In this document: piece by piece, positions 15,227-24,622 of the stretch
Layout: each line of letters starts with the position of its first letter
Numbering within the stretch: the stretch's first letter is position 1
Assembly: GCF_001263395.1 (NCBI RefSeq)
Contig: NZ_CP011786.1
Location: 1,364,001 to 1,428,000 of the forward strand
Length of the DNA stretch: 64,000 nt
DNA from: Bifidobacterium actinocoloniiforme DSM 22766
Lineage (GTDB): Bacteria; Actinomycetota; Actinomycetes; Actinomycetales; Bifidobacteriaceae
Direction: 5' to 3'
Made by a program: the position numbers and the translations under genes
The notes under the pieces: model-generated
The model's database searches: none
What the model was told of the DNA's origin: nothing
What the model saw: the letters and a program-made list of their open reading frames with translations, nothing else

Positions 15227-17591
15227 GAGCCAGCACCGTGGGAGTTCCGTCACCCCCCAGGACCGCCGCGCCCCCGCACCGGGAGCAGACCGGCGGCGAC
15301 CCAGCGCACCCCTAGGCGCGTTGACCACATCAATCCGCGCCCTGCTGGCGTTCCTTTTGGTCTGCGCCAGCATCCTGCTGCCAGCGCCCGCGGCCCTGGC
15401 GAACCCAGGCGAGGAGATTCAAGCGGCGGGCGAACAGCGCAAGACCGAAGAGCGCGAGGATGAGACCAAAACCAAGCTGGCCATCCGGTCCTCCACGCCA
15501 ATGATCTCGTCCACGTCCGGCTACGCGGCGCGGGTGGCCGTGACCAACACCTCGAGCGCCCCCCTTGATGCGGGCAGCCTAAGCGCCTCCACCAACAGCC
15601 TGTATACCTTCAGCTCCAGAATCGACATGCAGGGTTGGGCCGAAGGAGGCTCCCGGATCCCCACGCCCAACCAGCTTGCCGCCCAGCCCGTCGGCGTCAT
15701 CCAGCCAGGGCAAAGCGTGGAGGTCACCCTTTCCGCCCCCGCCGACGACGGATCGATCAAAGCCATGGCCACTTGGGGGCCGAAACCCCTGTTGCTGACA
15801 TACCAGAGCGGGCAGGCGGGCGGCTCCGGCAAGCAGGTGCGCGCAGCGATCAGTTCCTTCCTGACCCGCTCGCAAGACGGCTTGACCACCGCCCAGACCC
15901 CGCCGATGACGGTGAGCATGCTTATGCCGCTGACGACGACCGGCTGGACCAGCGACCAAGGCGCGGTCAAGCGCCTGATGACCGGTGAGCGCCAAGAGGA
16001 TCAGGACAGCCAGGGCAGCAAGCACAGCGACGGCCAAGCCGGTCGCGGTGAAGGATCGCGTGAGCAGACCGATCCCAGCCAAATCCTAAGCCTCAATCAG
16101 GAGGCCCAGAAGGTGCAGAACAGCCAGATGCAACTCGTCAGCCACCATCCCAATCTCAATGTGGTGGCCGACCCCACCTACCTGGCCGCGTTCGAGAACT
16201 CGCCCAAGGTGGATGCCGTCATGCAGCCCGCCGCATTCGACCTGACCGCATACTCCAGCCAAGACGCCGCCCACTACGCTTCCGCCGGCGTCCAACCCAC
16301 CGTGTGGAGCGCCGACCAAACCGGCAAGGACCTGCAAGCGGCCCTGGGCGCATCCTCGAAGACCATCCCAACCTACGCTTGGCAAGGGCGGAGGTCCTGG
16401 TCCATGGACTCATTGACCCAGGCCCGTCAGCAGGGATACCAGACCGTCGTGGCCCCCCTGGGCTTGGACGCGGGCTCCGGCTCCTCGGCCCACACCGGCA
16501 AGTACACGGTACCTACAGCCGCCGGCGAGGTCACGGTGCTGTCGGCCCAGCAGGAGTTGAGCGACCTGGCGCAAGGGCAACCCACCTCCACCAGAGCGGC
16601 GGGCGAGCAGACGCCGGCCGGGCAGACCGCCCGATTCATGGCCCAATCCGCCTTCTACCAGATGGAACAGCCTTACTCCGAGCGGCCCCTGCTGGTCTGC
16701 TTCGGGACCGACCAAGACGCCGAAGCCACGTCGGCGCTGATGGACGCGGCGGAGAAAGCCCCTTGGCTGAAGCTGAGCGGACTTGACGCGCTCAATCAGG
16801 CCCAGGCCTACCAGGGCGGGGAAGCCGCCAAACAGACCGTGGCCCAGGCGAATCAGGCCAACGGCGGCCAGAGCAAGGACAACGGACTGTCCGGCACGCT
16901 GGACTCCCTGACCGCCAGTCGGCAGGACATCTCCCGATTCGGCGAGTCCATCCTAGCCACCCCCAGCCAAGCCCAATCCACTCCCTCGGCCTCCAGCCGG
17001 TCCGACGCCCAAGCCCTGGCCCGGCAAGACGCGGCCAACGCGGCCCATCGCTCCGATGACCCCCGACGCTGGCTCAACGAGGTGAGCGAGGCCCACGACA
17101 CCCTGGCTCTGCACACCCTGGCCTGCACCAACCAAGCTGCAAGCCTGGCCGACTCGGCGCGCGCCCTAGCCGACCAACTTCTCGGCGGCATACAAATAAG
17201 GCCTTCCGAGTCCATCACCGTGGTCTCCGAGACCGCGACGATGCCGGTCACCGTCTCCAACTCGCACCCTTATCCGGTGGCCGCCCGGGTCAGCGCTAAG
17301 ACCGATTCGATGGAGATCGCCACCACGCGCACCGCAGACACGGTCATCCCCGCCAATTCCGAAGCCCAAGTGACCTTCACCATCCGCGTGGCCACCGCCG
17401 GCCAAGCCACCGCTGAAATCTCCCTGGTGGACCGGCAGGGTCGTCCCTTCGGGCAGACGCAGGCCACCCACATCAACAGCCACCTGCGTCTGAGCGACAT
17501 GTCTGGTTTAATCATCGTCGTCGCAGCCCTCTTGTTCGGCGCCTTAGGCCTGTGGCGGCAGTTCCATCGCAAGAAGGACCCGGACGAATGA
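15219..17591 (+). CDS. DUF6049-type secreted membrane-anchored protein
   Basis: A 790-residue exported protein. An N-terminal signal or membrane segment lies at about 30-60 (LLAFLLVCASILLPAPAALA). A long extracytoplasmic part rich in Gln, Ala, Ser and Thr follows. A C-terminal helix (LIIVVAALLFGALGLW) and a short basic cytoplasmic tail RQFHRKKDPDE end the protein. The region from about 640 looks like an immunoglobulin-like beta fold. The family occurs between Nudix and MurJ genes in many actinobacteria, including mycobacteria, and its function is not established. It overlaps the Nudix gene at its start and MurJ at its stop (ATGA), so the three are probably one transcript acting on peptidoglycan export. 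Confidence 0.8.
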   Translation: MTESQHRGSSVTPQDRRAPAPGADRRRPSAPLGALTTSIRALLAFLLVCASILLPAPAALANPGEEIQAAGEQRKTEEREDETKTKLAIRSSTPMISSTSGYAARVAVTNTSSAPLDAGSLSASTNSLYTFSSRIDMQGWAEGGSRIPTPNQLAAQPVGVIQPGQSVEVTLSAPADDGSIKAMATWGPKPLLLTYQSGQAGGSGKQVRAAISSFLTRSQDGLTTAQTPPMTVSMLMPLTTTGWTSDQGAVKRLMTGERQEDQDSQGSKHSDGQAGRGEGSREQTDPSQILSLNQEAQKVQNSQMQLVSHHPNLNVVADPTYLAAFENSPKVDAVMQPAAFDLTAYSSQDAAHYASAGVQPTVWSADQTGKDLQAALGASSKTIPTYAWQGRRSWSMDSLTQARQQGYQTVVAPLGLDAGSGSSAHTGKYTVPTAAGEVTVLSAQQELSDLAQGQPTSTRAAGEQTPAGQTARFMAQSAFYQMEQPYSERPLLVCFGTDQDAEATSALMDAAEKAPWLKLSGLDALNQAQAYQGGEAAKQTVAQANQANGGQSKDNGLSGTLDSLTASRQDISRFGESILATPSQAQSTPSASSRSDAQALARQDAANAAHRSDDPRRWLNEVSEAHDTLALHTLACTNQAASLADSARALADQLLGGIQIRPSESITVVSETATMPVTVSNSHPYPVAARVSAKTDSMEIATTRTADTVIPANSEAQVTFTIRVATAGQATAEISLVDRQGRPFGQTQATHINSHLRLSDMSGLIIVVAALLFGALGLWRQFHRKKDPDE

Positions 17592-20500
17592 GCCGGGCGA
17601 ACCGGGCCTCGGCCCAGAAACAGACCCATGCGCAAGCATCCTTGCCGGCCTCATCCTCGCCAGCCCCAGAGCGGCTGAGCCAGGCGGCTGAGGGCAAGGA
17701 TTCCGTAGGACGTAACTCAATCATCATGGCCTCCGGCACGGCCGCCTCGCGCGTGACCGGACAGATTCGCACCATCCTGCTGGCCGCCGCGATCGGCACC
17801 ACCGGCATCGCCGCGGACGCCTACCAAACTGGCGCCATGATCCCCCAGGTCATGTTCACCCTGATCTCAGGAGGCATCTTCAACGCGGTGCTGGTCCCGC
17901 AGATTGTGCGCACCCTGAAGGAGGAGGACGCCGAGGACCGGCTCAACAAGCTTATAACCGCGTCAATCGCCCTGCTGGCCGGTCTGACGCTCATCCTGAT
18001 GCTGGGCACTTCGGTGCTGACCTCCATCTACCTGAACTCGAAATGGAACCCAGCCCAGCGCGCCCTGGCGAACGCCTTTACGCTCTGGTGCATGCCACAG
18101 GTCTTCTTCTACGGTCTGTACACGGTCCTCGGGCAGATTCTGGCGGCTAAGGGGCGCTTTACGGCCTACGCCTGGTCCTCGGTAGCGGCGAATGCCATCT
18201 CCTGCGGCGGTTTCCTGGCCTTCATCGCCATGTTCGGCAACGCCCAGAAGCAACCGATGGACTTTTGGACGACCGAGAAAGTGGGGCTCACAGCCGGAGC
18301 TTGGACCCTGGGTGTGGCCTTCCAAGCCCTGGTCCTGTTCATCCCGCTCATCCAATCCGGCTTCACCTACCGGCCGCGCTGGGGGCTGAAGGGCATCGGC
18401 CTGCGCTCGATGGGCCCCGTGGCGGCCTGGAGCCTGGGCGTGGTGGTCATCGACCAGCTGGCGAATATCGTTAACGCCCGCATTACGAACGGTGCGCCCC
18501 TGGAAGGCGATCCCTTCGACATCGCCGGCAACGGCTCCTATCAGAACGCCTACACGCTCTACATGCTGCCCTATTCGCTGATCGCCGTCTCCGTCTCCAC
18601 CGCTATCTTCCCCCTGCTCTCACAGGCCATCGCCGAGAACCGAATCGATGACGCCCGTCAGGCTTTGAGCCGGGCCCTGCGCAATGTGGGCCTGATGATG
18701 TGTTTCTTCGGCGTGGTCATGCTGGTCATCCCAGTGCCAATCATCCGCGCGCTCCTGCCCTCGGTCAGCGTGCACGAAGCCGTCCTGATTTCCGGCCCCC
18801 TATTGGGCCTTACGGTGGGCTTGGCGGCGGTCTCGGCCTTCCTGCTCATACAGCGCACTTTCTACGCTTTCGAGGACGGCAAGCAGCCTTTCATCTTCGC
18901 GGCCATCTCAAACACGCTGCAGGTGGGCATGGTGCTGGTCGCCGTCCGCCTGGCTCCTCCCCGCTACTGGACCACTCTCGTCGGCCTCTCTTTGGCCCTG
19001 AGCAACATCGTCTCATTCCCCTTCCTAGTGCACATGCTCAAGCGCCGGTTCGAAGGATTCCTGGACGGACGACGAATCGTCGCCACCTATTGCAAGGCCC
19101 TGCTGGCCGCCATCGTGGCAGGTGGCCTGGCCCTCCTCGTGAAGACGCCGCTGACCAAGCTCGCAGGCGCCGAGGTAAGCGGGCGCCAGGGGCACATGAG
19201 TTGGGTCCAGGCGGTGTTCATCTGTCTGGTCATCAGCGTCCTGGTCGGCGCGGTCTACTTCCTGCTGCTCTGCCTGCTGCGCACCAGCGAACTGACCGAC
19301 CTTCTCAACGGCCTGACCAGACGTCTGGGCGTTGGCGAGAAAACCAACAGCAAGAGCGCTCGAACCGGTTCGATACCAGCTGTTTCCTCCCTACCCGCCG
19401 ACCCGACGGCCCAGGAGAGCGAACTGGCCGGGCAGCCCATACGCGTCATCCGGTCCTACACCCAACCCGCCATCGGCTCTGAGTTGGAAGGGGCGCTCGA
19501 GCAAATCGAGAATGTGGCCATGGCTGACGCCGGCTCCATGAATCCTCGCGTCTGGAAGCAGCCAGCCCGCATCGTCCCCAAACTCCCACCCCGCAAAACC
19601 TTGCAGCGAAAGGCCACGGAGCCCGCAACACCAACACCCGCAACACCAGCAGCCGCCCCAATCAGCCAAACGACAGGCCAGCGGGCTGGCGATCGCCAAA
19701 GCAACCTCGCAAGTGCCCCCATACCGGCCGCACCCCCCTCAGGAGCCCCCCTGGCCAAACCTACCGAACCCTCTCCTTCCTTCGCCCTCCCGTCCGAAGG
19801 CACAGCCTGGCCCCAGCCAAGCGCCCTCTCGACGCAGCCCAGCCCCGCAGCTCACGAGAATTCAGGAACCATGGAGCCTTCCACCTCAGATATCCTTCTC
19901 GACCGCTACCAGCTCAAAACCCTCCTCAAGCGCGGACCGGGCCTGAGCGTATGGCAGGCGCAAGATAAAGTCCTCGATAGGCCCTGCCAGCTCTTCCTGG
20001 TGACCGACGCCTCGGCCTTGGAGCCAGTGGGTGCCGCGGCCTCCGCCATGGCCCTGAAGCCCAACCGCCGGTTCACACCGGTCTATCAACTCCATGCGCG
20101 CGACGGCATCGCCCTGGTCGTCACTGGCCTGGACGAAGGCACCTCACTCCGAGAGTTCCTGGAGAACCAGGAGCCAGCCCAGCGCCCCAGCTTTGAAGCC
20201 ATCCGCACCATCGTTGGCGAAAGCGCTCAGGACCTGACCACCCTACGCCAGGCCGGCCTGACCAACCTGTCGCTTTCGCCTAGCCTGATTCGCCTGGCAG
20301 CGCCACGAATCTGCATCGCCGACGCATCGGTCTTCTCCATGCTCAAGCCCTGGCTACCAAGCAGAACCGAAGACGACAATGGCAGCGAAAGCTTGGCCAT
20401 CCGCCAACTTTCCGGGATCCTCTATGCCCTCTTGACCGGTTCAATCCCCAATGACAGCAGCGAATCCCTATCCTTGCAAGCGCTTCCGGCGGACGTGCCC

Positions 20501-22108
20501 GAGGCGTTCAGCATCATTTGCGAGCGCGGCCTGGGCCTGCGCGCACCCGAGAGGCCTGCGCCCACCCGCTTAGTCACCCTGGCTGAGCTGACCGCCCTCC
20601 TAGGCTCCTGGACGCCGCCGGAAGAGTTGGGCGAACGCGACATCCACTGGCCCCAAGGCTCTGGAAGCGCCTCAATCGAGACCGTCCGCCTCAAGCCCGT
20701 AGCTCAACGCGACCGCCTACCAATCCCGGCTTCCCTGATGATAACCGGGCGCACGGCTTCACGCACCCTTGCTGAGCCGAGGTGGGGGGCCAACCAGCTC
20801 CTCTTCCCCGGTCGCGGCGAAGTGCAGATGGTCAATCCTGCCGAATCCGATGCCGACCTCTTCTCCATGTTCGACGAACGCAAGCTCCAGAACCGTCGCT
20901 CCTCTTCCGCACCACTCGGGCAGAGCGAGCGTTCCACCTGGCCAACACGGATGGTCGATGCCAGCGAGCTACGGCGAGTCGGCAGCTCAGACTTCAGCGA
21001 TACGGCTTCCACCACGGCGGGCGGTCAGCGTTCTCTTGCAAACAAGGGCAAGCAGGAGCCTGAGGACGATCAGGGCACTGATTTGTTCGCGCGGATACCC
21101 GCCAGGCCGCTCGCTGGCCAGGGCAATCAGGCCGCGCGGTCCGCAGTGCCCGCGATGGTGTGGGATTTCGCTGACACCGGTGAAATCAACTTGGCCCGCC
21201 CGCAGGAGACCGATCCGGCCGACCTGCCGGACAAGCAGGCGGAGGACGCACAGGCCATTGCAACTGGTGCCGGGGCCGGGTCCCCTGCCCATGCGCAAGC
21301 CGAATCCGTACTGGACCTGCCGCCCAGCTTCGCTCCCGGCAGCGCCGAACAAGCCATCAACGTCCGATCGCAACGAGGTCCATTCGGGCTGGACGAACCC
21401 GGCGATGACAGAGATGACGAAGACGACGAGGACGTCGCGGATGCCCGTCTATTCGGCCGCTTCACCACCAAATCCGTGGTCATAGCCGTGGCCTCATGCC
21501 TGGTGGTCATAGGCCTGATCTGGGCTTCCCTCACCTTGGTTGGCCACCGGCGACCCAAGGAGGGGAAAGCGTCGGGCTGGCCGCAAATGTCCAATGTGCC
21601 CTTCCCAGGCCACAAGAGCGACTCATCCGACTCCTCGTCCACGGCCCAACCCCAGCAACCCGAGGAGGGCGAGAAAGCGGGACAGAAGTCCGGCGAAGCA
21701 TCCCCGGCCCCAACGGTCAAGCATGGGACCAAGTCAGCCTCGGCTGTGCCCGCCCCCAGGCAGCCGACCAACACGACTGCCTACCCAACACTCAGGCAAA
21801 CCTTCCTGAGCCACCCCGCCGGGCAACCGGGCTTCGCCTGGTACGTACACCTGGACGCGCCCCACGAGGTCTCCCGTGTGGAAGTCTCCATCCGCCAGCA
21901 GGGCGGGCACGCCCAGATCTTCGCCAATGCGTCCGCTTCCCAGCCCACGCCTGGCCAATCCCTAGCGGACTTCTCATTCGACCCCTCTGGCGTCAGCAGG
22001 GTCACGCTCACAAAACCGGTCACCACCCAGGATTTAATCATCTGGGTCCCCCAAGACGGCTTGCCGGCGGGAGGGACACTGCATTTCAACGAGGTCAAAG
22101 TCTACTGA
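17588..22108 (+). CDS. murJ: MurJ lipid II flippase fused to a pseudokinase and an outer beta domain
   Basis: Large multi-domain protein (1506 aa). Residues about 45-575 form the MurJ/MviN flippase with 14 or so membrane helices (start NSIIMASGTAASRVTGQIRT). After a Pro/Ala-rich linker a kinase-like domain begins near residue 770 (LDRYQLKTLLKRGPGLSVWQ). It lacks the ATP-binding lysine, the HRD loop reads NLSLSPSLIRL, and DFG reads ADASVF, so it should be catalytically dead. A second acidic linker leads to a membrane helix near 1297-1319 and a C-terminal extracytoplasmic domain (about 1395-1506) resembling galactose-binding folds. Mycobacterial MviN has the same plan, and there the pseudokinase is phosphorylated by PknB and binds FhaA. 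The ATG overlaps the DUF6049 stop codon. Confidence 0.9.
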   Translation: MSRANRASAQKQTHAQASLPASSSPAPERLSQAAEGKDSVGRNSIIMASGTAASRVTGQIRTILLAAAIGTTGIAADAYQTGAMIPQVMFTLISGGIFNAVLVPQIVRTLKEEDAEDRLNKLITASIALLAGLTLILMLGTSVLTSIYLNSKWNPAQRALANAFTLWCMPQVFFYGLYTVLGQILAAKGRFTAYAWSSVAANAISCGGFLAFIAMFGNAQKQPMDFWTTEKVGLTAGAWTLGVAFQALVLFIPLIQSGFTYRPRWGLKGIGLRSMGPVAAWSLGVVVIDQLANIVNARITNGAPLEGDPFDIAGNGSYQNAYTLYMLPYSLIAVSVSTAIFPLLSQAIAENRIDDARQALSRALRNVGLMMCFFGVVMLVIPVPIIRALLPSVSVHEAVLISGPLLGLTVGLAAVSAFLLIQRTFYAFEDGKQPFIFAAISNTLQVGMVLVAVRLAPPRYWTTLVGLSLALSNIVSFPFLVHMLKRRFEGFLDGRRIVATYCKALLAAIVAGGLALLVKTPLTKLAGAEVSGRQGHMSWVQAVFICLVISVLVGAVYFLLLCLLRTSELTDLLNGLTRRLGVGEKTNSKSARTGSIPAVSSLPADPTAQESELAGQPIRVIRSYTQPAIGSELEGALEQIENVAMADAGSMNPRVWKQPARIVPKLPPRKTLQRKATEPATPTPATPAAAPISQTTGQRAGDRQSNLASAPIPAAPPSGAPLAKPTEPSPSFALPSEGTAWPQPSALSTQPSPAAHENSGTMEPSTSDILLDRYQLKTLLKRGPGLSVWQAQDKVLDRPCQLFLVTDASALEPVGAAASAMALKPNRRFTPVYQLHARDGIALVVTGLDEGTSLREFLENQEPAQRPSFEAIRTIVGESAQDLTTLRQAGLTNLSLSPSLIRLAAPRICIADASVFSMLKPWLPSRTEDDNGSESLAIRQLSGILYALLTGSIPNDSSESLSLQALPADVPEAFSIICERGLGLRAPERPAPTRLVTLAELTALLGSWTPPEELGERDIHWPQGSGSASIETVRLKPVAQRDRLPIPASLMITGRTASRTLAEPRWGANQLLFPGRGEVQMVNPAESDADLFSMFDERKLQNRRSSSAPLGQSERSTWPTRMVDASELRRVGSSDFSDTASTTAGGQRSLANKGKQEPEDDQGTDLFARIPARPLAGQGNQAARSAVPAMVWDFADTGEINLARPQETDPADLPDKQAEDAQAIATGAGAGSPAHAQAESVLDLPPSFAPGSAEQAINVRSQRGPFGLDEPGDDRDDEDDEDVADARLFGRFTTKSVVIAVASCLVVIGLIWASLTLVGHRRPKEGKASGWPQMSNVPFPGHKSDSSDSSSTAQPQQPEEGEKAGQKSGEASPAPTVKHGTKSASAVPAPRQPTNTTAYPTLRQTFLSHPAGQPGFAWYVHLDAPHEVSRVEVSIRQQGGHAQIFANASASQPTPGQSLADFSFDPSGVSRVTLTKPVTTQDLIIWVPQDGLPAGGTLHFNEVKVY

Positions 22109-22259: not shown

Positions 22260-23576
22260 ATGGCCGACGACCCCACCACTGCCCCGAAAGTCATTAACAA
22301 CGACCCCTGGTATGGCTCTTACGCCGCTCGGGCCGAGTCCATGCGAGCCTCGGAGATACGGGCCTTATTCGCGGTGGCTAACAGGCCCGACGTGGTCTCC
22401 CTGGCTGGCGGAATGCCTTATCTGGGTCGTATGCCGTTCGACCAACTGGCCGACCAAGTGACGCAAATGCTCAGGGAGCGGGGCGAGGTGGCCTGGCAGT
22501 ACGGCTCGGCCCAAGGCGACCCGCATCTGCGCGAGGACGTCCTGCAAATCATGGCCCTGGAGGGCATCACGGACGCCCAGAGCGACGATGTGGTCATCAC
22601 TAACGGCTCCCAGTCAGGCCTGGACCTGATCACCCGGGTCATGTGCGATCCAGGCGATGTGGTGCTGGCCGAGGCGCCCAACTAAGTAGGAGCCCTGGGT
22701 GTTTTCCAATCCTTCCAGGTCGAGGTCGCCAACGTGCCCATGGACGCGGATGGGCTGATTCCCGAGGCTTTCGAAGAAGCGATTCAGGCCCAACGTCGTC
22801 AGGGCAAACGGGTCAAAATGCTCTATACGGTCCCCAATTTCCACAATCCAGCTGGTGTGACGATGAGCTTGGAGCGGCGCCCGCGCATCCTTGACATCGC
22901 CCACCGGGAGCATGTGCTGATCCTGGAAGACAACCCCTACGGCCTGCTCGGTTTTGACGGCCGCACCTACCCCGCCTTACGCTCCATGGATCCAGATGGC
23001 GTCGTCTACCTCTCCTCCTTCTCCAAAATCATCGCCCCAGGCATGCGCGTGGCCTGGATGCTGGCCCCACCCGGCATCCGCCAAAAACTGGTCCTGGCTA
23101 ACGAGTCCGCCATCCTCTGCCCTTCGAATATGAGCCAGATGACCATCACCAGCTACCTGGATAACTTCGACTGGCGCGGGCAGATAGAAGACTACAGAAG
23201 CATGTACCGGGAGCGCAGGGACGCGATGGATGCCGCCTTGAGCGAATACCTGCCTTTCTGCTCATGGAACAAGCCCCAGGGAGGCTTCTACATTTGGCTG
23301 CGCATCCCGGAAGGGTTGGACGCCAAAGCCATGCTGCCGCGCGCCATCGCCGCCAAGGTGGCCTATGTCTCCGGCACCGCTTTTTACAATGACGGCCAGG
23401 GCGCCGACCATATGCGGCTCTCCTTCTGCTATCCCACACCGGAGCGCATCCGAGAGGGCATCAGGCGCCTGGCCGGCGTCATCGACCGCGAGCTGGAAAC
23501 CGTCCAGCTCTTCGAGGGCGCGAAACAAGAGGCAAGCAAGTTCCCAGCAACCCTAGACCAGCAGGAGGAACGATGA
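22260..23576 (+). pseudogene. PLP-dependent aminotransferase interrupted by one in-frame stop
   Basis: Fold-type I aminotransferase (2-aminoadipate/MocR-like class) of about 438 codons. The reading frame is continuous from ATG 22260 to 23576 except for TAA at 22683-22685, where homologues would have a tyrosine (EAPN-Y-VGALGVF). A single C-to-A change (TAC to TAA) explains it. Both halves are otherwise intact: LAGGMPYLG and the NGSQSGLDL cofactor loop before the stop, and the PLP-lysine segment YLSSFSKIIAPGMR after it. If the stop is real, only a 141-residue fragment is made and the downstream half could start only at an internal ATG such as 22740. The stop overlaps the ddl-like start (ATGA). 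A sequencing error or recent inactivation are the main explanations. Confidence 0.85.
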
Positions 23577-24622
23577 GCGAGCGCGAAACGAATGCGGGCC
23601 CAAACCCCGGCCAGGCCTCAATTCTCGTCGTCTGCGGTGGGCTGAGCACCGAGCGTGACGTCTCCCTGAGCTCAGGCCATCGGGTCCGGGGTTTCCTCAG
23701 GGAAGCGGGCTGGCAGGTGACCATCCACGACTTGGATCAGACCCTGCTGGACTACCTGACGGCCCCGGCAACACGCCCGGACCTGGTCTGGCCTCTCCTG
23801 CACGGGGCCGACGGGGAGGACGGCTCCATTCGCGACATTCTCGATATGACCGGCCTTCCCTACATCGGTTCCCGCGCTAAGGCCTCGCGCACAGCTTGGA
23901 ACAAGCCCATCGCCAAGAACGTAGTGCGCCAGGCCGGCCTGTCCACCCCCCACTCAGTCACACTCCCAGAATCGATTTTCCGCGAGCTAGGCGCCCGGCA
24001 GATCGTGGATCTGATGGTTGAATCCCTCGGGCTGCCCCTGTTCGTTAAACCCAGTGAAGGTGGATCGGCCATGGGTTGCTCGTTGGTTGACACACCGGAT
24101 CGGTTGCCGCAGGCTTTGATTAATTGCTTCGCTTACGGACCAGTCGCCCTGATCGAGCAGGCCGTCAACGGCACCGAAATCTCCGTCTCGGTCCTGGAGA
24201 TTGACGGCCGGCTACGCGCCCTACCACCACTGGAGATTTGGACGCCCGACGGCATCTACAATTACGAAGCAAGAGCCACGCCCGGACCAACCAAGTTCTA
24301 TGCGCCCGCCCGGCTGAGCCGGCAGACCTTGGCAAAGGCCCAGGAAGCCGCCTTGACCGCCCACCGCGCCCTGGGCCTACGCGACATCTCACGAGCCGAC
24401 TTCATCGTCGATGCCTCAGGCCTTCCTCTCTTCCTGGAGTCGAATGTGGCGCCCGGCATGACCGCTACCTCACAGTTACCCCAGTCGGCCTTGGCCGCCG
24501 GATACTCCCTGCCTGAGCTTTACTCCAGCTTGGTTCGATCAGCGCTTTCGCCAGGCCGTTCTGACAGCCCCAACGCCGGCTCCGAATCATTCCGGGAGCC
24601 AGGCTTGCCTTCCATTGCTTGA
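23573..24622 (+). CDS. D-alanine-D-alanine ligase family protein
   Basis: ATP-grasp enzyme (349 aa) expected to join two D-alanines for peptidoglycan. The N-terminal serine motif is GGLSTERDVSLSSG, then WPLLHGADGEDGSIRDIL, the ATP-grasp loop LFVKPSEGGSAMGCSL, and the metal and substrate loop FLESNVAPGMTATSQLPQS. The usual metal-binding EVN is ESN here, which keeps Glu and Asn. It is somewhat shorter than classical DdlA, and the family is also called ATP-grasp Ddl-like in actinobacteria. The start overlaps the stop of the damaged aminotransferase, so its translation may depend on that gene. The 3' end overlaps a leftward small gene by about 100 bases. Confidence 0.85.
   Translation: MSERETNAGPNPGQASILVVCGGLSTERDVSLSSGHRVRGFLREAGWQVTIHDLDQTLLDYLTAPATRPDLVWPLLHGADGEDGSIRDILDMTGLPYIGSRAKASRTAWNKPIAKNVVRQAGLSTPHSVTLPESIFRELGARQIVDLMVESLGLPLFVKPSEGGSAMGCSLVDTPDRLPQALINCFAYGPVALIEQAVNGTEISVSVLEIDGRLRALPPLEIWTPDGIYNYEARATPGPTKFYAPARLSRQTLAKAQEAALTAHRALGLRDISRADFIVDASGLPLFLESNVAPGMTATSQLPQSALAAGYSLPELYSSLVRSALSPGRSDSPNAGSESFREPGLPSIA

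Follow-up and report, generated by a model that had tools for sequence, protein, structure and literature searches.

In the genome of Bifidobacterium actinocoloniiforme DSM 22766, the gene coding for a PLP-dependent aminotransferase is interrupted by one in-frame TAA codon, which is probably a real and very recent nonsense mutation truncating an enzyme of the kynurenine/2-aminoadipate aminotransferase-like group. The window, i.e. the whole stretch of 64,000 nucleotides that was analysed (contig NZ_CP011786.1, positions 1,364,001 to 1,428,000), has a G+C content of 61%. The class I/II aminotransferase frame is located on its forward strand and runs from the ATG at 22260 to the TGA at 23574-23576. 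The N-terminal part of 141 codons (22260-22682) carries the GSQ motif for the PLP phosphate (residues 116-118), TAA occupies codon 142 (22683-22685), and the remaining frame up to the TGA (22686-23576) contains the N193/N196, D224-Y227 and SFSK256 motifs. Matches to Pfam Aminotran_1_2 were obtained on both sides of the stop, for residues 58-141 before it (E 4.6e-7) and for the stretch after it (E 4.2e-20). When TAA is translated as tyrosine, a product of 438 residues is obtained which matches PF00155 over its full length (residues 59-404, E 7e-34, 118 bits for a gathering score of 19.7). The PLP lysine and the active-site residues (GSQ 116-118, D224, Y227 and K256) are all in frame, but the TAA divides them between two polypeptides. 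A whole-genome search found exactly one internal stop in this gene, this TAA, in frame with both the ATG and the rest of the gene; these results are in agreement with the first-pass annotation, which had described an otherwise intact aminotransferase split by a single stop. The gene is present in single copy and its next paralogue is 27% identical. A second copy substituting for the broken gene was considered and rejected, the other aminotransferases found in the genome being at most 27% identical. The closest named record is that of B. xylocopae (87% identity).

The alignment of the read-through protein with the PH0207 aminotransferase (1x0m/3aov; E 5e-99) spans about 390 residues, and the structural relatives of the group also include the T. 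thermophilus 2-aminoadipate transaminase (2egy) and human KAT-II (4gdy). It shares with these enzymes the GSQ motif, the PYG and SFSK-type motifs and, at the position of the stop, a tyrosine, whose codon here is a stop. None of the NCBIfam equivalog cut-offs was reached by the aminotransferase. All full-length orthologues checked have tyrosine at codon 142, written TAC or TAT, and for loci on the minus strand it is the residue, Y, that was compared; they are from Bifidobacterium, Bombiscardovia, Alloscardovia, Cellulomonas, Isoptericola, Demequina, Actinomyces and the Propionibacteriaceae. TAT is found in B. xylocopae and Bombiscardovia coagulans and TAC in another near relative (G001); because the nearest relatives are divided between both, neither codon can be preferred as the ancestral one. 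The earlier proposal that a single change from TAC would restore an enzyme of about 438 residues therefore holds for the length of the product, TAT being as good a candidate as TAC for the original codon.

Residue 142 aligns with Tyr129 of PH0207 in structure 1x0m, as counted along the alignment. Human KAT-II has its PLP ring parallel to Tyr142 (PMC4848902), and the spacing of the motifs, rather than a printed alignment, suggests that this residue is the equivalent of residue 142 in B. actinocoloniiforme. By alignment with the nearest structural relatives, Tyr142 is thus predicted to stack on the PLP ring, so that the stop would remove a cofactor-contacting residue and the whole of the protein beyond it, with the Schiff-base lysine (K256 of SFSK). 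In the draft genome of Actinomyces ruminis CtC72, the aminotransferase gene is frameshifted by one missing G just past the Tyr142 equivalent (L064:4330-4400) and the ddl-like gene also looks frameshifted (L064:5493-5511), trxB aligning there unbroken; these appear to be either draft errors or a parallel decay of the two genes.

The age of the stop was approached by comparison with relatives. No internal stop was detected in any of the 25 other same-genus genomes carrying the aminotransferase gene. The genome G165 had first seemed to be another relative whose gene is interrupted ("1 TAG"), and was rejected since this TAG is the normal terminal stop. The dN/dS ratios calculated against B. xylocopae, with dS near saturation, were 0.064 for codons 15-141 and 0.051 for codons 143-413; these values suggest that purifying selection is as strong before and after the stop as between intact relatives. 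At 232 alignment columns that are unchanged across 39 relatives, the gene shows three departures (the stop and two others), B. xylocopae showing three and one Bombiscardovia genome five. A Poisson bound limits neutral drift to at most about 2-5% of the lineage time since B. xylocopae, depending on the assumed branch length. Normal selection, the few departures and this bound therefore indicate that the stop is either very young or an error. An old pseudogene was rejected, both sides being under normal selection with no further lesion. About 52 kb of the window were set against the syntenic DNA of two relatives, and the conserved genes showed neither a further internal stop nor a frameshift once alignment-end stops upstream of true starts and shadow open reading frames in other frames had been sorted out by eye. 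An apparent break near 33.5 kb was rejected as the ordinary boundary between rpmH and rnpA.

The stop thus presents the features of a point-nonsense pseudogene: it is absent in relatives and the frame is otherwise conserved. Since the gene shows neither a second lesion nor relaxed selection and is intact in the relatives, the data lead to a single fresh nonsense change or to a base error. Independent frameshifts in all relatives, which would have spoken for another history, were not observed. The same features fit with an A at 22685 that is only a sequencing or consensus error, the gene being intact in the organism; this explanation is a tentative one and the less probable of the two. The stop is the sole blemish of a gene that shows normal selection on either side and is intact in all relatives, and a one-base consensus error would be expected to look identical. 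Furthermore, about 52 kb are without another broken gene and the genome gives no independent sign of decay. Base rates may also be considered: an assembly with 1e-5 to 1e-6 errors per base would have about 2-18 wrong bases in 1.83 Mb and, if about 1 in 25 substitutions makes a stop, 0.1-0.7 false nonsense codons would be expected per genome. Against such an error, the assembly looks clean (one complete contig of 1.83 Mb, 99.87% complete and 0.03% contaminated), no indel-type error was seen in the approximately 52 kb compared with relatives, and the site at 22685 is not a homopolymer. A real and very recent mutation is the more probable reading. The third position of the invariant Tyr142 codon would have changed once, from TAY to TAA, and the product would be an inactive piece of 141 residues without the catalytic lysine; any fragment restarted downstream would be without the phosphate-binding and ring-stacking residues.

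The first-pass annotation had proposed recent loss, base error and read-through as the three options, and the comparative data fit the first two. The third, in which read-through or recoding of the TAA, as tyrosine or another residue, would give a full-length regulated enzyme, is very improbable. Purifying selection does persist before and after the stop, as read-through would predict, but it is explained equally well by a very young mutation; tyrosine is encoded directly in every orthologue and the stop is found in none of the 25 same-genus relatives with the gene. Further arguments against read-through are that both release factors recognise the UAA stop codon and that no residue but tyrosine would be expected to restore the stacking on PLP. 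The genome search gave 46 tRNA genes, all ordinary and none with a TTA, CTA or TCA anticodon; these genes were searched with one family model, from which a highly aberrant tRNA could escape. A genome-wide code change or a suppressor tRNA was rejected, the tRNA set being ordinary and no other internal stop being present in the compared genes of the window. There is equally little reason to believe in a real stop that is tolerated through a low, possibly regulated, tyrosine-inserting read-through that would set the level of the aminotransferase and, through coupling, that of the Ddl-like protein.

The first in-frame start codon past the stop is a GTG at 22734-22736, from which a fragment of 280 residues would be produced. 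That the gene now works as two proteins, an N-terminal one of 141 residues and a C-terminal one of 280 residues that starts again at this GTG, is the least credible of all the explanations considered. The Shine-Dalgarno sequence of the GTG is moderate (-7.1 kcal/mol, for a background median of -3.3 and a 5% level of -9.4), but the GAGGT on which it relies sits in ordinary coding sequence. Furthermore, the restart leaves out residues 142-158, including the invariant Y142, V143, G144 and F149, the PLP site is divided between the two pieces and the split gene is observed in no relative.

The ddl-like gene (23573-24622, forward strand) codes for an ATP-grasp ligase of 349 residues. Its ATG at 23573 overlaps the stop codon of the aminotransferase as ATGA, confirming the overlap described at the first reading, and the same arrangement is found in B. 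xylocopae. The product matches PF07478 (E 5.8e-40) and PF01820 (E 9.6e-16), and the catalytic motifs are present when it is aligned to the canonical Ddl of the genome. It reaches the cut-off of D-alanine--D-alanine ligase (NCBIfam NF002378) with 243.2 for 243, Ddl-type motifs being kept. This is the second gene of ddl type in the genome and shares about 34% identity with the canonical one (G000:C1:1757659). Its dN/dS ratio against B. xylocopae is 0.076, with dS near saturation. The strong Shine-Dalgarno sequence AGGAGGA (23563-23569) pairs with the anti-Shine-Dalgarno at -10.3 kcal/mol (5% level of the window background, -9.4), and the region showed no terminator-like site. With the moderate Shine-Dalgarno at GTG 22734, ribosomes might restart past the stop, which would limit polarity. 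The ddl-like gene would therefore probably still be translated from its own ribosome-binding site, at a level that may be lower. The idea that lost translation of the aminotransferase might reduce Ddl accordingly survives in a weakened form: given the own Shine-Dalgarno sequence of the gene, the possible restart and the canonical ddl elsewhere, a lower level of the ddl-like product after the stop is possible and a shortage of D-Ala-D-Ala is unlikely.

The distribution of the two genes was compared across 189 Bifidobacteriaceae genomes. With a threshold of E below 1e-120, an orthologue of the ddl-like gene is present in 62 genomes and, on comparison of the two genome lists by hand, a close aminotransferase is present in these same 62 (62/62); the ddl-like gene at close identity occurs only with the aminotransferase. 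The close aminotransferase is missing in 122 of the 189 genomes, and in five fragmentary, more distant ones an aminotransferase of 53-61% identity occurs alone. In four examined complete genomes without the pair, no more than 1.5 kb separates the end of murJ from trxB downstream and neither gene lies there; in the others examined the murJ-trxB region is rearranged. One genome of the same genus (G021) is without both the aminotransferase and the ddl-like gene. In it, a shortened murJ-like gene is followed by about 4.7 kb without an open reading frame of 150 codons and then by trxB (G021:C1:2272790-2277460; L189:790-5462), a stretch that is possibly a decayed region. In B. actinocoloniiforme, positions 17552-22108 of the window hold an open reading frame of 1518 residues in which, by eye, a MurJ-like flippase is seemingly fused to a long, kinase-like C-terminal region of low complexity; it lies close to trxB, parB and parA.

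The aminotransferase and the ddl-like gene thus form a conserved, uncharacterised unit of two genes that are kept or lost together. Literature searches on this gene pair, or on a pseudogene of this sort in bifidobacteria, gave nothing relevant. A role of the pair in peptide or cell-wall precursor chemistry, suggested by the ligase partner, is only a guess. The joint presence and absence indicate a dispensable unit whose members go together, so that a recent knockout in a single species is unremarkable; the mutation would be a first step to a loss that is common in the Bifidobacteriaceae. Like other bacterial point-nonsense pseudogenes, the gene is dispensable and otherwise conserved, is intact in relatives and carries a single nonsense codon; it differs from the typical ones in that a PLP-stacking residue is struck and the gene pair is missing from many family members. 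The case is of an ordinary kind, whether a further point-nonsense pseudogene or a base error, and the co-occurrence of the pair is the more useful by-product. If the stop is real, B. actinocoloniiforme would offer a natural knockout in which decay has only just begun, an aid to learning what the aminotransferase/Ddl-like pair beside murJ does, and it would also bear on why the Bifidobacteriaceae kept or lost the two genes jointly.
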